This document shows, piece after piece, positions 30,485 to 35,858 of a stretch of DNA of 64,000 bases; positions within the stretch are counted from its first letter, which is position 1; the number at the start of each line of letters is the position of its first letter. Location of the stretch: NCBI GenBank assembly GCA_903938815.1, contig CAJAES010000104.1:1-64000 (forward strand), written 5' to 3'. Below the pieces are notes generated by a model. It ran no database searches, was not told the origin of the DNA, and saw only the letters and a list, made by a program, of their open reading frames with translations. Origin of the DNA: an uncultured beta proteobacterium. Its GTDB lineage: Bacteria; Pseudomonadota; Gammaproteobacteria; Burkholderiales; Burkholderiaceae_C. Position numbers and translations under genes: made by a program.

Positions 30485-31816
30485 TCAGCCGCTGAGCAGG
30501 GACGCCAGCGCGCTGCGCTGGACCTTGCCCAGCGCCGTCTTCGGAAGGGTCTCGGCCACCACGATGCGGCGGGGGTGCTTGAAGCGCGCGAGCGACCGGT
30601 CGAACAGCTCGCGCAGCGCGGCTTCGTCGATCTGTCGGCCAGCCCTGGGCACCACCACCAGCACGGGCACCTCGCCCCAGCGCGCGTCGGGCAGACCTAG
30701 AACGCAGCACTCGGCGATTTCGTCGTGCTGCATGAGCAGGTTCTCGATCTCGGCGGGGTGGATGTTCTCGCCGCCCGAGATGATCAGTTCCTTGCTGCGC
30801 CCGACGATCTGATAGCTGCCATCGGCGTGCTGCACGGCCAGGTCGCCGGTGTGGAACCAGCCCTCGGCGTCGAACGACGGCACGTCGCTGCGGTGATAGC
30901 CACGCATGAGGTTCGGGGCCCGCAGCAGCACCTCACCATCGGCGGCCAGGCGCACCTGCACGCCCAGTGCCGGCCGGCCGCAATGCCCGACCTGCGACAT
31001 CGCGTCCTGCGGGCGCAGCACGATGGAAACCGGCCCGGTCTCGGTGCCGCCATAGACCTGCGCCACGGGCACGCCGCGTGCGTGGAATGCCTGGATCAAC
31101 GAGGCCGGCACGACCTGCGAACCGCTGTTGACGAAGCGAAGCGAAGACAGGTCGGCGTCGGGCCAGGCGGGGTGTTCGACGATGGCCTTCATGACGGCGG
31201 GCACCAGCAGGCTGGTCGTCGGCCGCCACTCGGCGACGTCGCGCAGCCAGGCCGCGGGCTCGAAGCGGGCCTGCAGTTTCACCCGGCCACCTGCCGCCAG
31301 CGCAGGCAGCACCTGGATGCACAGCCCGCCCACATGGAACATCGGCAGCACGGCCAGGACACGGGTCGGGGCGTCGAAGCCCTGCGCCTCGATGGCGGCG
31401 TCGATGTTGGCCTGCATGCCCGCAGACGTGTGAATGGCTCCCTTGGGCTGCCCGGTCGTGCCCGAGGTGTAGACCAGCATCAGGTCGCCCGGCACGTGCC
31501 CCGGCGCGCGCGGCTGCGGCAGCGTTACCCGCTGCCGCACCTGCTCGGCGAGTGCCGCGTTCGCCGTGTCGTGCAGCAGGTGCTGCAGACCCGCGTGAGT
31601 GGCAATGTAGGCCAGCTCCGCCGGGGCCAGACGCCAGTTCATCGGCACGTAGCGCGCACCGATGCGGCGGCAGGCCTCCAGAAGCGCCAGGGTGCGAAGG
31701 CTGTTGTGCGCGAGCCAGCCCACCGAGTCGCCGGCCTGCACGCCCAGCGCGAGCAAGGCGCCCGCTTCGCCGTCGGCAGCGCGCTCGACGTCCCGGCGGT
31801 CGAACTCCAGTGTCAC
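30485..31816 (-). CDS. AMP-forming acyl/aryl-CoA ligase
   Basis: A 443-aa ANL-superfamily ligase. Motifs are MLVYTSGTTGQPKGAIHTS (P-loop, ~130-148), YGGTETGP (A5, ~265), GWFHTGDLAV (A7, ~325), GRSKELIISGGENIHPAEIE (A8 hinge, ~345-364) and the catalytic Lys in LPKTALGKVQR (A10, ~430). It is shorter than typical members (500-550); the N-terminal ~60 residues usually seen are partly missing. GTG 31816 overlaps the upstream TGA (GTGA), so it is the last gene of a coupled five-gene operon. It probably activates an aromatic or short acid in the pathway. Confidence 0.85.
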   Translation of the reverse strand: MTLEFDRRDVERAADGEAGALLALGVQAGDSVGWLAHNSLRTLALLEACRRIGARYVPMNWRLAPAELAYIATHAGLQHLLHDTANAALAEQVRQRVTLPQPRAPGHVPGDLMLVYTSGTTGQPKGAIHTSAGMQANIDAAIEAQGFDAPTRVLAVLPMFHVGGLCIQVLPALAAGGRVKLQARFEPAAWLRDVAEWRPTTSLLVPAVMKAIVEHPAWPDADLSSLRFVNSGSQVVPASLIQAFHARGVPVAQVYGGTETGPVSIVLRPQDAMSQVGHCGRPALGVQVRLAADGEVLLRAPNLMRGYHRSDVPSFDAEGWFHTGDLAVQHADGSYQIVGRSKELIISGGENIHPAEIENLLMQHDEIAECCVLGLPDARWGEVPVLVVVPRAGRQIDEAALRELFDRSLARFKHPRRIVVAETLPKTALGKVQRSALASLLSG

Positions 31817-33060
31817 GCCACGATCTCTTCGTCGCGCTCGCCGGGTTCGTACAGGCATTCGCGGCCGAGCCGGTCGACGCAGAGCTCGGCCGTCCACGGC
31901 AGCATCAGGCTGCCGCAGCGGCTGTCACGGTAGATGCGCTCCAGCGGCAGCGTCTTCAGCATGCTCTGCCCGCCGCAGGTGCGGATGGCCAGACGCGCGA
32001 TGTCGTTCGAGTTCTCCATGATGGAGTAGTGCGCGGCATACAGGCGCATGCGGGTGTCGCGGTCCGGGTCGACCTGCGCGTCTCGGGCGTTCTGCAGGAA
32101 GATGGCCCGCGTCTGCTCGAGCTTGATGCGCATCTCGGCCGTGGCCACCTGCTTGGTGGGATACATGCGGCGCTTGACGGGCGGCGTGCCGGGCATCTCG
32201 CCGCGAAGGTAGCTCACCGTGAAGTCGTAGGCCGCCTGCGCCAGCCCCATGTAGGTGGGCGACAGCGTGGCGAACATGTGCGGGAACCGGCTGGCCGCCT
32301 GGAAGTACAGGCCTTCCGGGATCATGCGGGCTTCGTCGGGCACGAAGACCGACTTGAAGTCGAGGTTGCGCGACACGGTGCCGCGCATGCCCAGAGGGTC
32401 CCAGGCGCCGCTCACGGTGACGCCTTCCGCGTCCGATGGCACCGCCAGATAGAGCGAGTCCCGCATCGTCGCGCCGGGCTTGTCGAGCGTGCACAGCACG
32501 CCGTAGTAGTCGGCCGCGCCCGAGAGCGAGGCGAAGATCTTGCGGCCGCTGACCAGGTAGCCGCCATCGACGCGCTGCGCCACCGTGCCCCACGGCGACT
32601 TGCCCGCGGCGGCGCTTCCGCCCTCCGAGAACGGCTGCGCGTAGACCTTGCCCTCCTCCACCACGCGGCGGAAGTGGATGGCGCGGCAGCGTTCGTGGTC
32701 GGCGCGCTGCTCGGCAGTCATGTCGAGCGCGTCGGCGATGAAGCCCGCCCACATCGCGGAACACACATGCATGTTCCAGGTCAGCGCCGTGGCGCCGCAA
32801 TAGCGCCCGATCTCGGCCGCGACCATCACGTAGGTGGCGAAGTCGGCGCCCAGGCCGCCGTGCTCGCGCGGCACGCAGATCTTCAGCAGGCCGGCCGCCC
32901 GCATGTCGGCGTAGTTGTCGAACGGGAAGACCGCGTCGCGGTCGATCTGCGCCGCGCGGGGCGCGAACTTCTCGCGCCCCAGCGTGCCGGCGAGTTCGAT
33001 GAGCTCGCGCTGCTGCGCGGTCAGCTTGGCCGGGTTGCCGGCGATGTGGCCTGGCGTCAT
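31813..33060 (-). CDS. Acyl-CoA-dehydrogenase-like flavoprotein
   Basis: A 415-aa protein of the ACAD fold, with an N-terminal helical domain (~1-130), a middle beta domain (~135-245: GYLVSGRKIFASLSGAADYYG, then GVTVSGAWDPLGMRGTVSRN) and a C-terminal helical domain (~250-400: RTCGGQSMLKTLPLERIYRDS). The same fold is used by flavin-dependent monooxygenases that take reduced flavin from a separate reductase, and a flavin reductase is encoded in this operon. A hydroxylase role is therefore as likely as a dehydrogenase. It is coupled to both neighbours by 4-bp overlaps. Confidence 0.85.
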   Translation of the reverse strand: MTPGHIAGNPAKLTAQQRELIELAGTLGREKFAPRAAQIDRDAVFPFDNYADMRAAGLLKICVPREHGGLGADFATYVMVAAEIGRYCGATALTWNMHVCSAMWAGFIADALDMTAEQRADHERCRAIHFRRVVEEGKVYAQPFSEGGSAAAGKSPWGTVAQRVDGGYLVSGRKIFASLSGAADYYGVLCTLDKPGATMRDSLYLAVPSDAEGVTVSGAWDPLGMRGTVSRNLDFKSVFVPDEARMIPEGLYFQAASRFPHMFATLSPTYMGLAQAAYDFTVSYLRGEMPGTPPVKRRMYPTKQVATAEMRIKLEQTRAIFLQNARDAQVDPDRDTRMRLYAAHYSIMENSNDIARLAIRTCGGQSMLKTLPLERIYRDSRCGSLMLPWTAELCVDRLGRECLYEPGERDEEIVA

Positions 33061-33833
33061 GGGGTGGTCTCCTGCAGGAATCGGATCAGCTCGGCATGGA
33101 AGGCCGCGGGCTGCTCGACGTTGGCGATGTGCCCCGCCCCGGCAATGCTCGCGTAGCGCGCGCCGGCAATGCGGTCCGCCATGCGCCGCATCACTTCGGG
33201 CGGAGCGGTGCGGTCCAGTTCGCCTGCCAGGCAAAGCGTGGGCACGGCAATGGCGGGCAGCGCCGCCCGGCCGTCGAAGGCGACGATGGCGGCCAGCACG
33301 CGGCGGTAGGTGGCCTCGGGCACGGCGCCCATGACACTGCGCGCCAGCGCAACACCGTCGGGATCGGCCTTGGGGCCAACCATCGGCGGCACCAGCCGTG
33401 CGGCGAGTTCAGGCATGCCGAGGCCGGCGTCCAGCGGCGCCAGACGCTCGGCCACGAAACGGGCCTGCCAGTCGCCGTCGGGCTTGCCGAAGGCAGGCGA
33501 CGTGCAGGCCAGCACCAGCGAATGCAGACGCTGCGGCGCCGAGGCCGCCAGGGCCTGCGCGACCATGCCGCCCATGCTGTGCCCGACGACAGCGGCCTGC
33601 GGCAGCGCGAGATGGTCCATGAGCGCGACGACGGCGGCGGCCATGGCGTCGACGCCGCCGGGCGTCAGGCTGGCGGAATCGCCGTAGCCCGGAAGGTCGA
33701 CCGCGATGGCGTCGAACCCAGCGGCCGCCAGCGCGGCCAGCGTGCCGCGCCAGATCGCGCGCCCGCCGCCGATGCCGTGCAGCATCACGACGGGCCGGCC
33801 CGCAGGGCCTTCGCGGTCGAAGGCGAGCGTCAT
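33057..33833 (-). CDS. Alpha/beta-fold hydrolase
   Basis: A 258-aa hydrolase. The oxyanion strand VVMLHGIGGG is at ~16-25, the nucleophile elbow VVGHSMGGMVAQ at ~82-93 (Ser86), the acid in LAGELDRTAPPE (~203-214) and the catalytic His in IAGAGHIANVEQP (~228-240). In the nicotinate pathway the equivalent slot next to NicX is filled by NicD, an alpha/beta-hydrolase deformylase, so N-formyl-amide hydrolysis after ring cleavage is a plausible job. Lactonase or esterase activity cannot be excluded. ATGA overlaps join it to the dioxygenase and the ACAD-like gene. Confidence 0.85.
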   Translation of the reverse strand: MTLAFDREGPAGRPVVMLHGIGGGRAIWRGTLAALAAAGFDAIAVDLPGYGDSASLTPGGVDAMAAAVVALMDHLALPQAAVVGHSMGGMVAQALAASAPQRLHSLVLACTSPAFGKPDGDWQARFVAERLAPLDAGLGMPELAARLVPPMVGPKADPDGVALARSVMGAVPEATYRRVLAAIVAFDGRAALPAIAVPTLCLAGELDRTAPPEVMRRMADRIAGARYASIAGAGHIANVEQPAAFHAELIRFLQETTP

Positions 33834-34855
33834 GCGAGCACGCCTTCGGTCACCACGGGCTGGTCGTCCAGCGTGACCGTGCAGCGCCGCAGCGGCAGGT
33901 CGAAGTGGCCCAGTGTGTGACGCCCCGCGACCTCGTTGGCGCCGGTGGAATACAGGAAGTTGCCGGCAAAGGCGCGCAACTCGGTGCCGTTGAAGTCGGC
34001 CTTGTCGTGGAACATCATCGAATCCCAGCGAGCGCGCCGGTTCAGGCCCCAGCCCACGTGCGAGACGGCATATGCGGCGCGGTCGCCCCAGGCCTCGAAG
34101 TAGCCGCGCATCAGGTCGGCATCGACATTGCTGCCCTCGATGGCGACCACATGGTCATGCTCGATCACCAGACGGACGGGGTCCTGCAGGTAGCGCTTGA
34201 AGGTGAGGTTCACGTCGCCCCGGTCCAGCACCAGCGTGCCGTGCACGCTGCCGGCCGCCGGGAAGGCCAGCACCAGGCCGCCGGGCCAGTGCGACAGGGT
34301 GCCGGGCCTGGCCGAGAACCCCCAGACGCCGCCGACGCGCGCATCGGCGAGCGAGATGGCGAGCTCGGTGCCGGCGCCGGAGCGCACGTGCATCTGCCGC
34401 GCCGCCTTCAGCCGCCGCATCGCTTCGCGCACGGGAGCTTCGTCCTCGGCACGGGGCGCGGTGCGCTCCAGGATCTCGGGGTGTTCGTTGCTGATGGCCA
34501 GCACGCGCGCCCCGCCCTTCAGGATCTGCGGCAGTTCGGCCGCGTGCTGCAGGCCCTCCACCGTGCAGTCAGCGATGAACACGCTGCCTGCCAGCGCCTG
34601 CACCACCGGGCCCAGGCCGCCGATGGCGTCGGACGCCCCGGTGGAGCGCACCGGCACCGGCGCTGTCTGCCGCGGCGTCGGCAGCACCACATGGAACCAG
34701 CGCGCTCCCAGGCGGGCCAGAGCCAGCTCGCTGAGCTGCACCAGTGCGGCGCGCGATTGCGTCTCGGACAGGATGGCGCAGGCGTCGCCGGGCTTGACGC
34801 CGCACAGCGTGAAGACCTCCGCGAAGGTGTCGATCCACTTCGGGTCGAGCCTCAC
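33830..34855 (-). CDS. NicX-like 2,5-dihydroxypyridine dioxygenase
   Basis: A 341-aa protein closely resembling NicX, the Fe(II) extradiol-type enzyme that opens 2,5-dihydroxypyridine (family length ~350). Matching regions are MHVRSGAGTEL (~155-165), GTLVLDRGDV (~206-215), VSHVGWGLNRRARW (~264-277), RAFAGNFLYSTG (~294-305) and GHFDLPLRRC (~316-325). His266 and His317-x-Asp319 line up with the iron ligands I recall for NicX (His265, His318, Asp320). GTG 34855 overlaps the reductase stop (GTGA). The family is also annotated as M29 aminopeptidase-like, but the ligand set favours a dioxygenase. Confidence 0.82.
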   Translation of the reverse strand: MRLDPKWIDTFAEVFTLCGVKPGDACAILSETQSRAALVQLSELALARLGARWFHVVLPTPRQTAPVPVRSTGASDAIGGLGPVVQALAGSVFIADCTVEGLQHAAELPQILKGGARVLAISNEHPEILERTAPRAEDEAPVREAMRRLKAARQMHVRSGAGTELAISLADARVGGVWGFSARPGTLSHWPGGLVLAFPAAGSVHGTLVLDRGDVNLTFKRYLQDPVRLVIEHDHVVAIEGSNVDADLMRGYFEAWGDRAAYAVSHVGWGLNRRARWDSMMFHDKADFNGTELRAFAGNFLYSTGANEVAGRHTLGHFDLPLRRCTVTLDDQPVVTEGVLA

Positions 34856-35343
34856 AGGACCTCTCCCAGCAGGTGGTAATGGCCGCCGTGGAACAGCAGC
34901 GGGGGCGTGGCGAGATCGGCCAGCTTCAGGACCCGGCCGATGAAGAGCACGTGGTCTCCGGCGGTCTGCTCGACGGTGCGCTCGCATTCCAGCACGGCCG
35001 CCGAACCCGAAAGTACCGGTGCGCCGCCCGCGCCTTCGCTCCACAGGCCTTCGGCGAACTTGTCGGTCACGCCCGAGGCGAACCGGCGCGACAGATCGAC
35101 CTGCGACTCCGCGAGGATGTTGATGGCGAAGTGCGTGGCCGCGCGAAACGCGCCGAGGCTGGGGCTGACCTGGCGCAAGGACCACAGCACCAGCGGCGGG
35201 TCCAGCGACAGGGCGCTGAACGAATTGGCGGTCAGGCCGATGCGCTCACCGGCCTCATCGACGCAGGTGATGATGGTGACGCCGGTCGCGAAGCGGCCCA
35301 GCACGGTGCGCAGGGCGCGGGGATCGACTGCAGGGCTGTTCAT
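34852..35343 (-). CDS. Flavin reductase (NAD(P)H:flavin oxidoreductase)
   Basis: A 163-aa protein of the HpaC/split-barrel flavin reductase family. Its features are LGRFATGVTIITC (~12-24), GLTANSFSALSLDPPLVLWS (~34-53), HFAINILAESQ (~70-80) and the C-terminal DHVLFIGRV ... PLLFHGGHYH. It would supply FMNH2 or FADH2 to a partner monooxygenase; the ACAD-like flavoprotein of the same operon is the obvious candidate. It is the first gene of the five-gene operon and is divergent from the MarR gene 71 bp away. Confidence 0.9.
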   Translation of the reverse strand: MNSPAVDPRALRTVLGRFATGVTIITCVDEAGERIGLTANSFSALSLDPPLVLWSLRQVSPSLGAFRAATHFAINILAESQVDLSRRFASGVTDKFAEGLWSEGAGGAPVLSGSAAVLECERTVEQTAGDHVLFIGRVLKLADLATPPLLFHGGHYHLLGEVL

Positions 35344-35414
35344 CACGGCTCGAATATATGAAAATTCATTGATAGGGCGCAAGCCCTCATTGGAAACGAA
35401 GCGCGAAGGCATCG
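35344..35414. promoter_or_regulatory. Divergent promoter region with MarR-site candidate
   Basis: The 71-bp gap between the catabolic operon and the marR gene is AT-rich compared with its surroundings. It contains ATGAA-AA-TTCAT (35358-35369), a 5-bp-arm inverted repeat inside AATATATGAAAATTCATTG. This is the best candidate for the MarR operator; both promoters must lie here. Confidence 0.5.
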
Positions 35415-35858
35415 ATGAGCGAAAGATTCGTCCACCGCCACCTGCCCTACCTGCTGGCGCGGGCCAGCCATGCGCTGTGGCGAGGCTTCGAGCCGCAGGT
35501 GCGGGCGGCCGGGCTGAACTCGCTGGAGTGGCGGGTTCTCGCAACCCTGTCCGACAGCGAACCGGTCACGGTGGGGCAATTGGCGCTGGAGGTTCTGGCA
35601 AAGCAGCCGACGGTGACGAAGTCGCTCGACCGCCTGAGTGCCCAGGGCTGGGTGGAGCGGCTTGCCGACGCCACCGACGCGCGCCGTGCGCGTGTGCGCC
35701 TCACGGCCGAAGGCCGCCGCAAGACCGCGCCCCTGCTGGCCGCCGCCGATGCCCACCAGCGGCTTCGCTTGCAGGCGTTGGGGCTGCAGGGCGAACGGGA
35801 CGAGGAAAGCCTGCGCGACGCACTGCTGGCGCTGGTCACGCACGCCGAGCGGGCCTAG
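35415..35858 (+). CDS. MarR-family transcriptional regulator
   Basis: A 147-aa winged-helix regulator. The core is LNSLEWRVLATLSD (~34-47), VTVGQLALEVLAKQPTVTKSLDRLSAQGWVERL as HTH and wing (~51-83), and the basic wing tip DATDARRARVRLTAEGR. The nicotinate-pathway regulator NicR is also MarR-type. Being divergent from the NicX-like operon, it is very likely the operon's repressor. Its end overlaps the 3' end of moaE by 4 bp (convergent). Confidence 0.9.
   Translation: MSERFVHRHLPYLLARASHALWRGFEPQVRAAGLNSLEWRVLATLSDSEPVTVGQLALEVLAKQPTVTKSLDRLSAQGWVERLADATDARRARVRLTAEGRRKTAPLLAAADAHQRLRLQALGLQGERDEESLRDALLALVTHAERA

Follow-up and report, generated by a model that had tools for sequence, protein, structure and literature searches.

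What kind of ring is opened by five overlapping genes that join a NicX-like protein to a flavin reductase, an alpha/beta hydrolase, an acyl-CoA-dehydrogenase-fold flavoprotein, and a CoA ligase? The question is raised by positions 30485 to 35858 of a stretch of 64,000 nucleotides (the window) from an uncultured beta proteobacterium of the order Burkholderiales (contig CAJAES010000104.1, assembly GCA_903938815.1). Our preferred answer, to which we give a probability of roughly 0.5, is that these genes form an aerobic catabolic operon, under the control of MarR, that opens an N-heteroaromatic ring by the logic of NicC, NicX, and NicD. The genes of the locus, with the short names used for them here, are as follows.

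34852–35343, minus strand: RED, flavin reductase of a two-component system, 163 amino acids, ATG start; PF01613 at 134 bits
33830–34855, minus strand: NICX, very likely an Fe(II) ring-cleaving dioxygenase of the NicX fold with an altered substrate pocket, 341 amino acids, GTG start
33057–33833, minus strand: HYD, alpha/beta hydrolase, proposed to be a NicD-like N-formyl hydrolase, 258 amino acids, ATG start; PF00561 at 118 bits
31813–33060, minus strand: ACAD, flavoprotein of the acyl-CoA dehydrogenase fold, proposed to be the oxygenase of a two-component hydroxylase, 415 amino acids, ATG start; PF02771, PF02770, and PF08028
30485–31816, minus strand: LIG, AMP-forming acyl- or aryl-CoA ligase, 443 amino acids, GTG start; PF00501 at 210 bits and PF13193 at 73 bits
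35415–35858, plus strand: gene for a MarR-family regulator, divergent from the operon; PF12802 at 53 bits, with an HpaR-like match of 54 bits that is under the cut-off

The operon (30485–35343) is transcribed from the minus strand in the order RED, NICX, HYD, ACAD, LIG, and its genes overlap by 4 bp at all four junctions (GTGA, ATGA, ATGA, and GTGA in that order). Re-reading of the coordinates and junctions confirmed this architecture and the divergent MarR gene as the initial annotation had described them from the letters of the window. A scan of GTDB contigs with NICX returned at least 592 pattern matches and at least 552 confirmed relatives. Partner genes were sought by tblastn within 6 kb of NICX in the best 80 of these confirmed relatives, the set to which the locus counts given here refer; several of the loci are cut by contig ends. 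HYD was found in 72 of the 80, ACAD in 69, LIG in 65, RED in 58, and the MarR gene in 30. NICX, HYD, ACAD, and LIG are collinear in 59 loci, and 49, judged by title to be mostly from Burkholderiales, hold the complete five-gene set with RED within 6 kb, so that the set which the initial annotation had suggested looking for in other genomes is present there. Less complete sets are found in Alphaproteobacteria, Pseudomonadales, and Acidimicrobiia: relatives in Minwuia and Kordiimonadales are without RED and LIG, those in Pseudomonadales without RED, and those in Acidimicrobiia without RED and ACAD. Recurrence across the 80 loci places the five-gene arrangement beyond chance and makes it a conserved module. 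The proposal that it is an undescribed variant stands with respect to the titles and abstract openings of the open-licence papers searched, in which no such gene set is described, a description elsewhere being possible. The module is probably a widespread bacterial variant of the NicX-type ring-opening pathways that acts on a substrate other than the known one.

The assignment of NICX rests on structure and on the conservation of its metal site. NICX has no match to any Pfam or NCBIfam model at E 0.001, and NicX of Pseudomonas putida KT2440 (PDB 7cn3) is the only PDB sequence that it matches (E 7e-57). An AlphaFold model of NICX, built with 22 relatives in the alignment, has a pLDDT of 88 and superposes on 7cn3 with a TM score of 0.90. 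The Fe ligands of NicX are His265, Ser302, His318, and Asp320 (PMC7910607), and they align with His266, Ser303, His317, and Asp319 of NICX; all four are kept in the window protein and in 80 of 80 loci. The set of His266 and His317-x-Asp319 noticed at the outset is therefore confirmed, and Ser303 joins it as the fourth ligand. His105, His189, and Arg293 (NicX numbering) are likewise kept in all 80 loci. With this fold and metal site, NICX is very likely an Fe(II) ring-cleaving dioxygenase.

The substrate pocket is a different matter. Glu177 of NicX bonds N1 and O1 (the pyridine nitrogen and the 2-oxo group) of 2,5-dihydroxypyridine, and the E177A variant retains 2.7% of the activity (PMC7910607). 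This residue is found in none of the 80 loci, which carry Val (48), Gly (26), Ser (4), Ile (1), or Asn (1) at an ungapped position of the local alignment with NicX, in a pocket region that has Gly175 in 78 loci, Gly176 in 76, and Trp178 in 80. It is retained in all four NicX proteins that lie within a nic gene context (L083, L084, L085, and L118). Three NicX homologs of unassigned role (L087, L090, and L110_2) have Gln at this position. A MAFFT column also suggested the loss of Glu308, but an adjacent one-residue deletion leaves Glu308 in the window protein, and no claim is made for that residue. In a tree of 64 rows, the operon-type NICX proteins and their near relatives (55 rows) are split from canonical NicX with support of 100/99, though the root region is unsure because L110_2 and L090 have long branches; the nearest named relative of the window protein among these rows is from Rubrivivax albus (88% identity). 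The comparison with NicX that the initial annotation proposed thus upheld a related fold and placed NICX in a clade of its own that excludes the nic-operon enzymes. Because Glu177 is lost throughout and the clade is separate, NICX is, by its sequence, probably not a 2,5-dihydroxypyridine enzyme, and the loss of Glu177 together with Gly at 175 and 176 would fit a bulkier ring without a 2-oxo group.

A sister group of NICX relatives, with 52–55% identity and Thr177-Pro178, was found in Ensifer, Aminobacter, Shinella, Sinorhizobium, and two further genomes, and these proteins (L081, L082, L088, L089, L126, and L129) form one supported group in the tree. On the Ensifer and Aminobacter plasmids, NICX is accompanied by ACAD and a longer hydrolase as well as by an APC permease and a glutamine-synthetase-like gene; no CoA ligase is annotated next to ACAD there in a gene table that is incomplete. 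The hydrolase of the group is longer than HYD, at 400–664 amino acids in L081, L082, L126, and L129. These plasmid relatives of the glutamine-synthetase type gave no fix on the substrate.

The remaining genes of the operon can be set against the nicC-nicE-nicD-nicX-nicF operon of P. putida, in which a NicX-type enzyme is likewise partnered with a hydroxylase and an alpha/beta hydrolase. In the position that NicC has in nic operons the initial annotation saw an ACAD-type flavoprotein, and it also saw an added CoA ligase; the domain matches support both, and here ACAD and a separate reductase stand in the place of NicC. HYD shares 39% identity across 102 residues with the NicD of a nic operon, and its GHSMGG, Asp, and GAGH motifs give the pattern of a serine-hydrolase triad. 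RED matches NF045919 (182 bits) and the HsaB-type NF045630 (141 bits), both below their cut-offs, and the solved sequence nearest to LIG is the feruloyl-CoA synthetase 8wev (E 6e-73). None of the five genes matches a maleamate amidase or a maleate isomerase, in keeping with the initial annotation, and a genome-wide search, which covered maleate isomerase only, gave for nic-operon NicE a sole match that is partial, of 30% identity, and on another contig. NicC and NicF, sought among the five operon genes, are also not among them.

ACAD is nearest in sequence to the solved proteins 5gj7 and 5z8t (E 1e-38), the latter titled 'Flavin-containing monooxygenase'. It shares the fold and the separate flavin reductase of the two-component monooxygenases HsaA, XiaF, and IacA; a reductase partner is expected of group D monooxygenases, and RED lies within 6 kb of NICX in most loci. 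The best evidence that ACAD is a hydroxylase is that a PF01494 hydroxylase takes its place in two loci. In L116, HYD and NICX have an aromatic hydroxylase of PF01494 (252 bits) as their direct neighbor; in L119, the gene between NICX and HYD encodes another protein of PF01494 (78 bits). No operon-type ACAD was called in either stretch. Direct evidence from the ACAD sequence itself argues only weakly for this function. A gene of matching size and position was seen in L117. In L087, on a plasmid of Rhizobium daejeonense, the Gln177 homolog of NicX shares its gene row with two amidases, a flavin reductase, and an HpaB-type hydroxylase, a further case of a swapped hydroxylase.

The pathway that we propose has four steps. 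ACAD, fed by RED, would hydroxylate the ring beside a CH-NH unit; NICX would then split the C(OH)=CH-N bond to give a carboxylate and an N-formyl group; HYD would release formate; and LIG would turn the resulting acid into its CoA thioester. The second step is modeled on NicX, whose cut through the C5(OH)-C6(H) bond next to the nitrogen yields a carboxylate together with an N-formyl group (PMC7910607). The supposition of the initial annotation that the substrate is handled as a CoA ester may then apply to the product and not to the ring. The substrate that we prefer is of the indole type, which would pass through indoxyl, N-formylanthranilate, and anthranilate to anthraniloyl-CoA. Indoxyl has the C(OH)-CH-N unit that NicX cuts, so N-formylanthranilate would be expected on chemical grounds. 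An indole-type substrate giving anthranilate is suggested by two genomic links, one in Burkholderiales and one in Pandoraea. We put this substrate forward tentatively, well short of even odds.

The link in Burkholderiales is to proteins of the NF006101 family, a model named 'salicylyl-CoA 5-hydroxylase/oxidoreductase'. In size and two-part make-up, these sequences are consistent with the monooxygenase/reductase that acts on 2-aminobenzoyl-CoA in Azoarcus evansii, a homodimer of 170 kDa (PMC4539516). The operon lies near such a protein in L040, L041, L043, L053, L108 (genome G002), L109 (G094), and L110 (G166), the family having been scanned directly in L040 and L108 and found in the others by similarity or genome search; L040 and L109 are apparently one assembly. 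Near the NF006101 gene in the stretches of L108, L043, and L110, no CoA ligase other than LIG was called. Of 250 genomes sampled from the order, 10 have operon-type NICX (more than 450 bits), 36 have NF006101 (E at most 1e-200), and 8 have both. NF006101 is thus present in 8 of 10 carriers of operon-type NICX and in 28 of 240 other genomes (Fisher p 3e-6, or 2e-5 without the window's genome, uncorrected for kinship), and the two genes lie within 16 kb of each other in four of the eight genomes (G002, G094, G166, and G217). The window's genome has a match of 1355 bits on another contig. A class sample of 362 genomes, which shares some genomes with the order sample, has NICX in 9, NF006101 in 14, and both in 4 (p 2e-4, or 2e-3 without the window's genome, again uncorrected for kinship). 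In one of these class genomes, G324, a ligase 61% identical to that of L121, and so similar to the ligase in a 2-aminobenzoyl-CoA cluster, lies 7 kb from NICX-HYD. The link in Pandoraea is to kynA-kynU-kynB, which adjoin all 10 loci of that genus (families confirmed for L057) and, being confined to one genus, probably represent one event.

Several other features of these genomes were noted. Members of NF006101 span 902–1426 bits, and six of the eight order carriers fall in a band of about 1098–1122 bits that may be a subtype of its own. On contig C11 of the window's genome (L115, 20000–39500), the NF006101 gene lies in a cluster with a class V aminotransferase domain protein, a PF04199 cyclase of the isatin hydrolase/KynB type, and a protein like the alpha subunit of indolepyruvate oxidoreductase, as well as transporter genes that are TRAP-like by eye and genes that, by eye or similarity, resemble SDR, enoyl-CoA hydratase, and GcdH; the cluster looks like a 2-aminobenzoyl-CoA pathway, perhaps fed by isatinate. 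Genome G166 (L110 and L119) has three NicX homologs: one of the operon type, one linked to PF01494, and one that is very divergent and lies about 1 kb from an NF006101 gene.

Several observations weigh against the proposed chemistry, its indole version, or both. HYD is absent between the other genes in L004, L040, L046, L125, L127, and L130; L030 and L034 carry NICX without any partner gene; and the best-scoring models for HYD are those of PcaD. Among more distant NicX homologs, His189 is replaced by Tyr in L116, L117, and L119 and by Ser in L123. The ACAD motif RDSRCG-S/A-LMLP is near-invariant in 29 rows, and Leu385, which aligns with His374 of 5gj7, is invariant in them. Leu387 of RDSRCGSLMLPW in ACAD stands, by eye, at the position of the Glu in the YEGT region of dehydrogenases, the printed alignments stopping short of this site. 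Judged by the motifs of the two groups, ACAD would presumably be without both the catalytic Glu of the dehydrogenases and the conserved C-terminal His over the flavin of group D monooxygenases (His371 in XiaF); this His, a mark of the group that includes HsaA and IacA, is not seen in the ACAD motif. The genomic links have limits of their own. Within the stretches examined, NF006101 lies in only 4 of the 80 loci, and kyn genes lie in 10, from one genus. Four of five order genomes with only a canonical-like NicX (275–284 bits) also have NF006101, and in G220 (L118) the two are 5 kb apart; because this canonical-NicX control carries NF006101, part of the co-occurrence may reflect catabolically rich genomes. 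In the class sample, the NF006101 carriers besides the window's genome are G324 and G325, which have NICX-HYD with no ACAD or LIG called (the G325 locus being at a contig edge), and G418, which has a relative of the glutamine-synthetase type. None of the five LIG-bearing class carriers outside the order (loci L122, L125, L127, L128, and L130; genomes G296, G327, G437, G506, and G591), all of which have NICX-ACAD-LIG, has NF006101; these genomes match only its second domain. As an alternative outlet for the product, anthranilate dioxygenase (TIGR03228) was rejected, with two sub-cut-off matches and none above cut-off in 12 carrier genomes; tryptophan dioxygenase was rejected as a constant partner, KynA matching in 6 of 18 carriers, 5 of them above cut-off. 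Either the substrate or the product outlet varies among carriers. Confidence in both the generic chemistry and the indole version was lowered slightly because of the carriers without NF006101, the canonical-NicX control, and the operons without HYD.

Other explanations of the locus have to be weighed with these points in mind. The one farthest from ours takes NICX for an M29 aminopeptidase and the operon for one unrelated to ring cleavage. Plasmid homologs are annotated as 'peptidase M29', and there is a fold match to PepS, AmpT, and AmpS, but it is weaker, with TM scores of 0.54–0.62 compared with 0.90 to NicX, and the M29 family PF02073, matched in 4 of 14 control genomes, is unmatched in the window's genome. 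We rejected this explanation as extremely improbable, the structure prediction and the absence of PF02073 bearing out the preference of the initial annotation for a NicX-fold dioxygenase. A further explanation is a route like that of nicotinate, with ACAD in place of NicC, whose substrate would be a pyridine carboxylic acid or a small pyridine related to one; it would account for the fold and metal site of NICX and for the presence of a reductase and a NicD-like hydrolase. The pocket speaks against it, with Glu177 missing in every locus and kept in each nic-context enzyme, as do the separate clade, an operon that holds neither maleamate amidase nor maleate isomerase, and telling neighbors, in a minority of loci, that belong to anthranilate or kynurenine metabolism. 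The pyridine carboxylate substrate proposed by the initial annotation is weakened accordingly, whether nicotinate-like or picolinate-like, and we consider it quite improbable.

Loss of the N-binding Glu counts in favor of a carbocyclic route of the HsaABCD type. On that route a phenol would be hydroxylated by RED with ACAD, the dioxygenase NICX would be of an extradiol-like or hydroquinone type, and a C-C bond would be hydrolysed by HYD. The resemblance of RED to the HsaB and HPAH reductases and the place of HYD among PcaD-like hydrolases agree with such a scheme; on the other side, no NicX-family enzyme is known to cleave a carbocycle, and the few telling neighbors point to anthranilate and kynurenine. 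We regard this route as improbable. A further scheme, which we call unlikely, places the CoA ester before ring cleavage: LIG would activate an aromatic acid, and ACAD would oxygenate its CoA ester in the manner of TdaE. Both LIG and ACAD are frequent in the loci, and the fold of ACAD binds acyl-CoA in classical members. TdaE is an ACAD-like oxygenase that acts on a CoA ester and has conserved residues absent from dehydrogenases and group D monooxygenases (PMC8283759), and ACAD also seems to fall outside both groups. TdaE works without a separate reductase, whereas RED is linked to NICX in 58 of 80 loci; the ligand of NicX, bound deep in a pocket, is a small heterocycle in free form; and the Ensifer and Aminobacter relatives are those for which the gene table lists no ligase beside ACAD.

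The reading that we prefer, the opening of an N-heteroaromatic ring, would in its indole form amount to a second, hitherto unrecognised bacterial route from indole, or a simple derivative, to anthranilate, in which ACAD and RED form indoxyl, NICX cleaves the C2-C3 bond, HYD deformylates, and LIG feeds an Azoarcus-type pathway. We hold this complete route with slightly less confidence than the indole-type substrate itself, as a doubtful possibility. Hydroxylation of indole at C3 has a precedent in XiaF (PMC5481743). The iif/ind route of Acinetobacter and Cupriavidus also leads from indole to anthranilate through a two-component flavin oxygenase (PMC6221969), and the IifC-type indole monooxygenases belong to group E (PMC13101512). 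In that route, however, the ring is opened by the cofactor-independent oxygenase IifA, and in the part of the report consulted neither a NicX-type enzyme nor an N-formyl step nor a CoA ligase is mentioned (PMC6221969). As far as these sources go, the known indole and skatole clusters iif and ska use other enzymes, and they were rejected as a match (PMC6221969, PMC13101512). The 2-aminobenzoyl-CoA pathway of A. evansii resembles the present system in that its monooxygenase/reductase has a counterpart beside the operon in several Burkholderiales and that LIG could supply its substrate; it differs in that the five operon genes are not part of it in the portion of the account consulted (PMC4539516) and in that the five LIG-bearing carriers outside the order are without it.

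The regulation of the operon appears to be local. The palindrome TATGAA-NN-TTCATA occurs with 11 of 12 matches at 35357–35370, about 14 bases from the start of RED in the gap between the MarR gene and the operon. A score of at least 11 of 12 was reached in 31 of 79 upstream regions, compared with 0 of 1580 block shuffles, for a motif chosen after some of the scored loci had been seen. In 2.1 Mb of loci (overlapping copies included), there are 42 sites that score 11 or 12, and all but two (in L080 and L133) are upstream of the operon. A longer palindrome, TATATGAANNTTCATN, has one exact match in the window's genome, at the operon, and one single-mismatch site, on contig C29; in a regulon search for missing pathway genes, only the operon itself matched it exactly. 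No palindrome site was found near the kyn genes in the loci scanned. The palindrome at 35357–35370 is thus a probable, predicted operator of MarR, and MarR looks like a local, dedicated regulator. The site on C29 (L135, near 47767) lies inside a called reading frame, with no recognised pathway gene there. The site in L133 (6367–6380; 11 of 12), from genome G418 with its glutamine-synthetase-type relative in place of the complete operon, lies 81 bases before an NF006101-like gene and may be due to chance, as this site and that of L080 alone lie away from the upstream region of the operon.

NicX is an iron dioxygenase with a fold and a metal site of its own, and its sole reported substrate is 2,5-dihydroxypyridine (PMC7910607). 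The proteins described here make up a large sister family of NicX, with at least 552 confirmed members, in which the iron site is kept, the substrate site is rebuilt, and linkage to genes for a hydroxylase, a hydrolase, and a CoA ligase is usual. The family suggests a function for genes that are annotated as 'peptidase M29' and 'acyl-CoA dehydrogenase', and the probable operator would ease the finding of the inducer. If the indole route is true, NicX chemistry would reach beyond pyridine to a fused five-membered ring, and NicX-type enzymes would be shown to cut the enol-amine unit HO-C=CH-NH. The family offers a direct test of what these enzymes can cleave.

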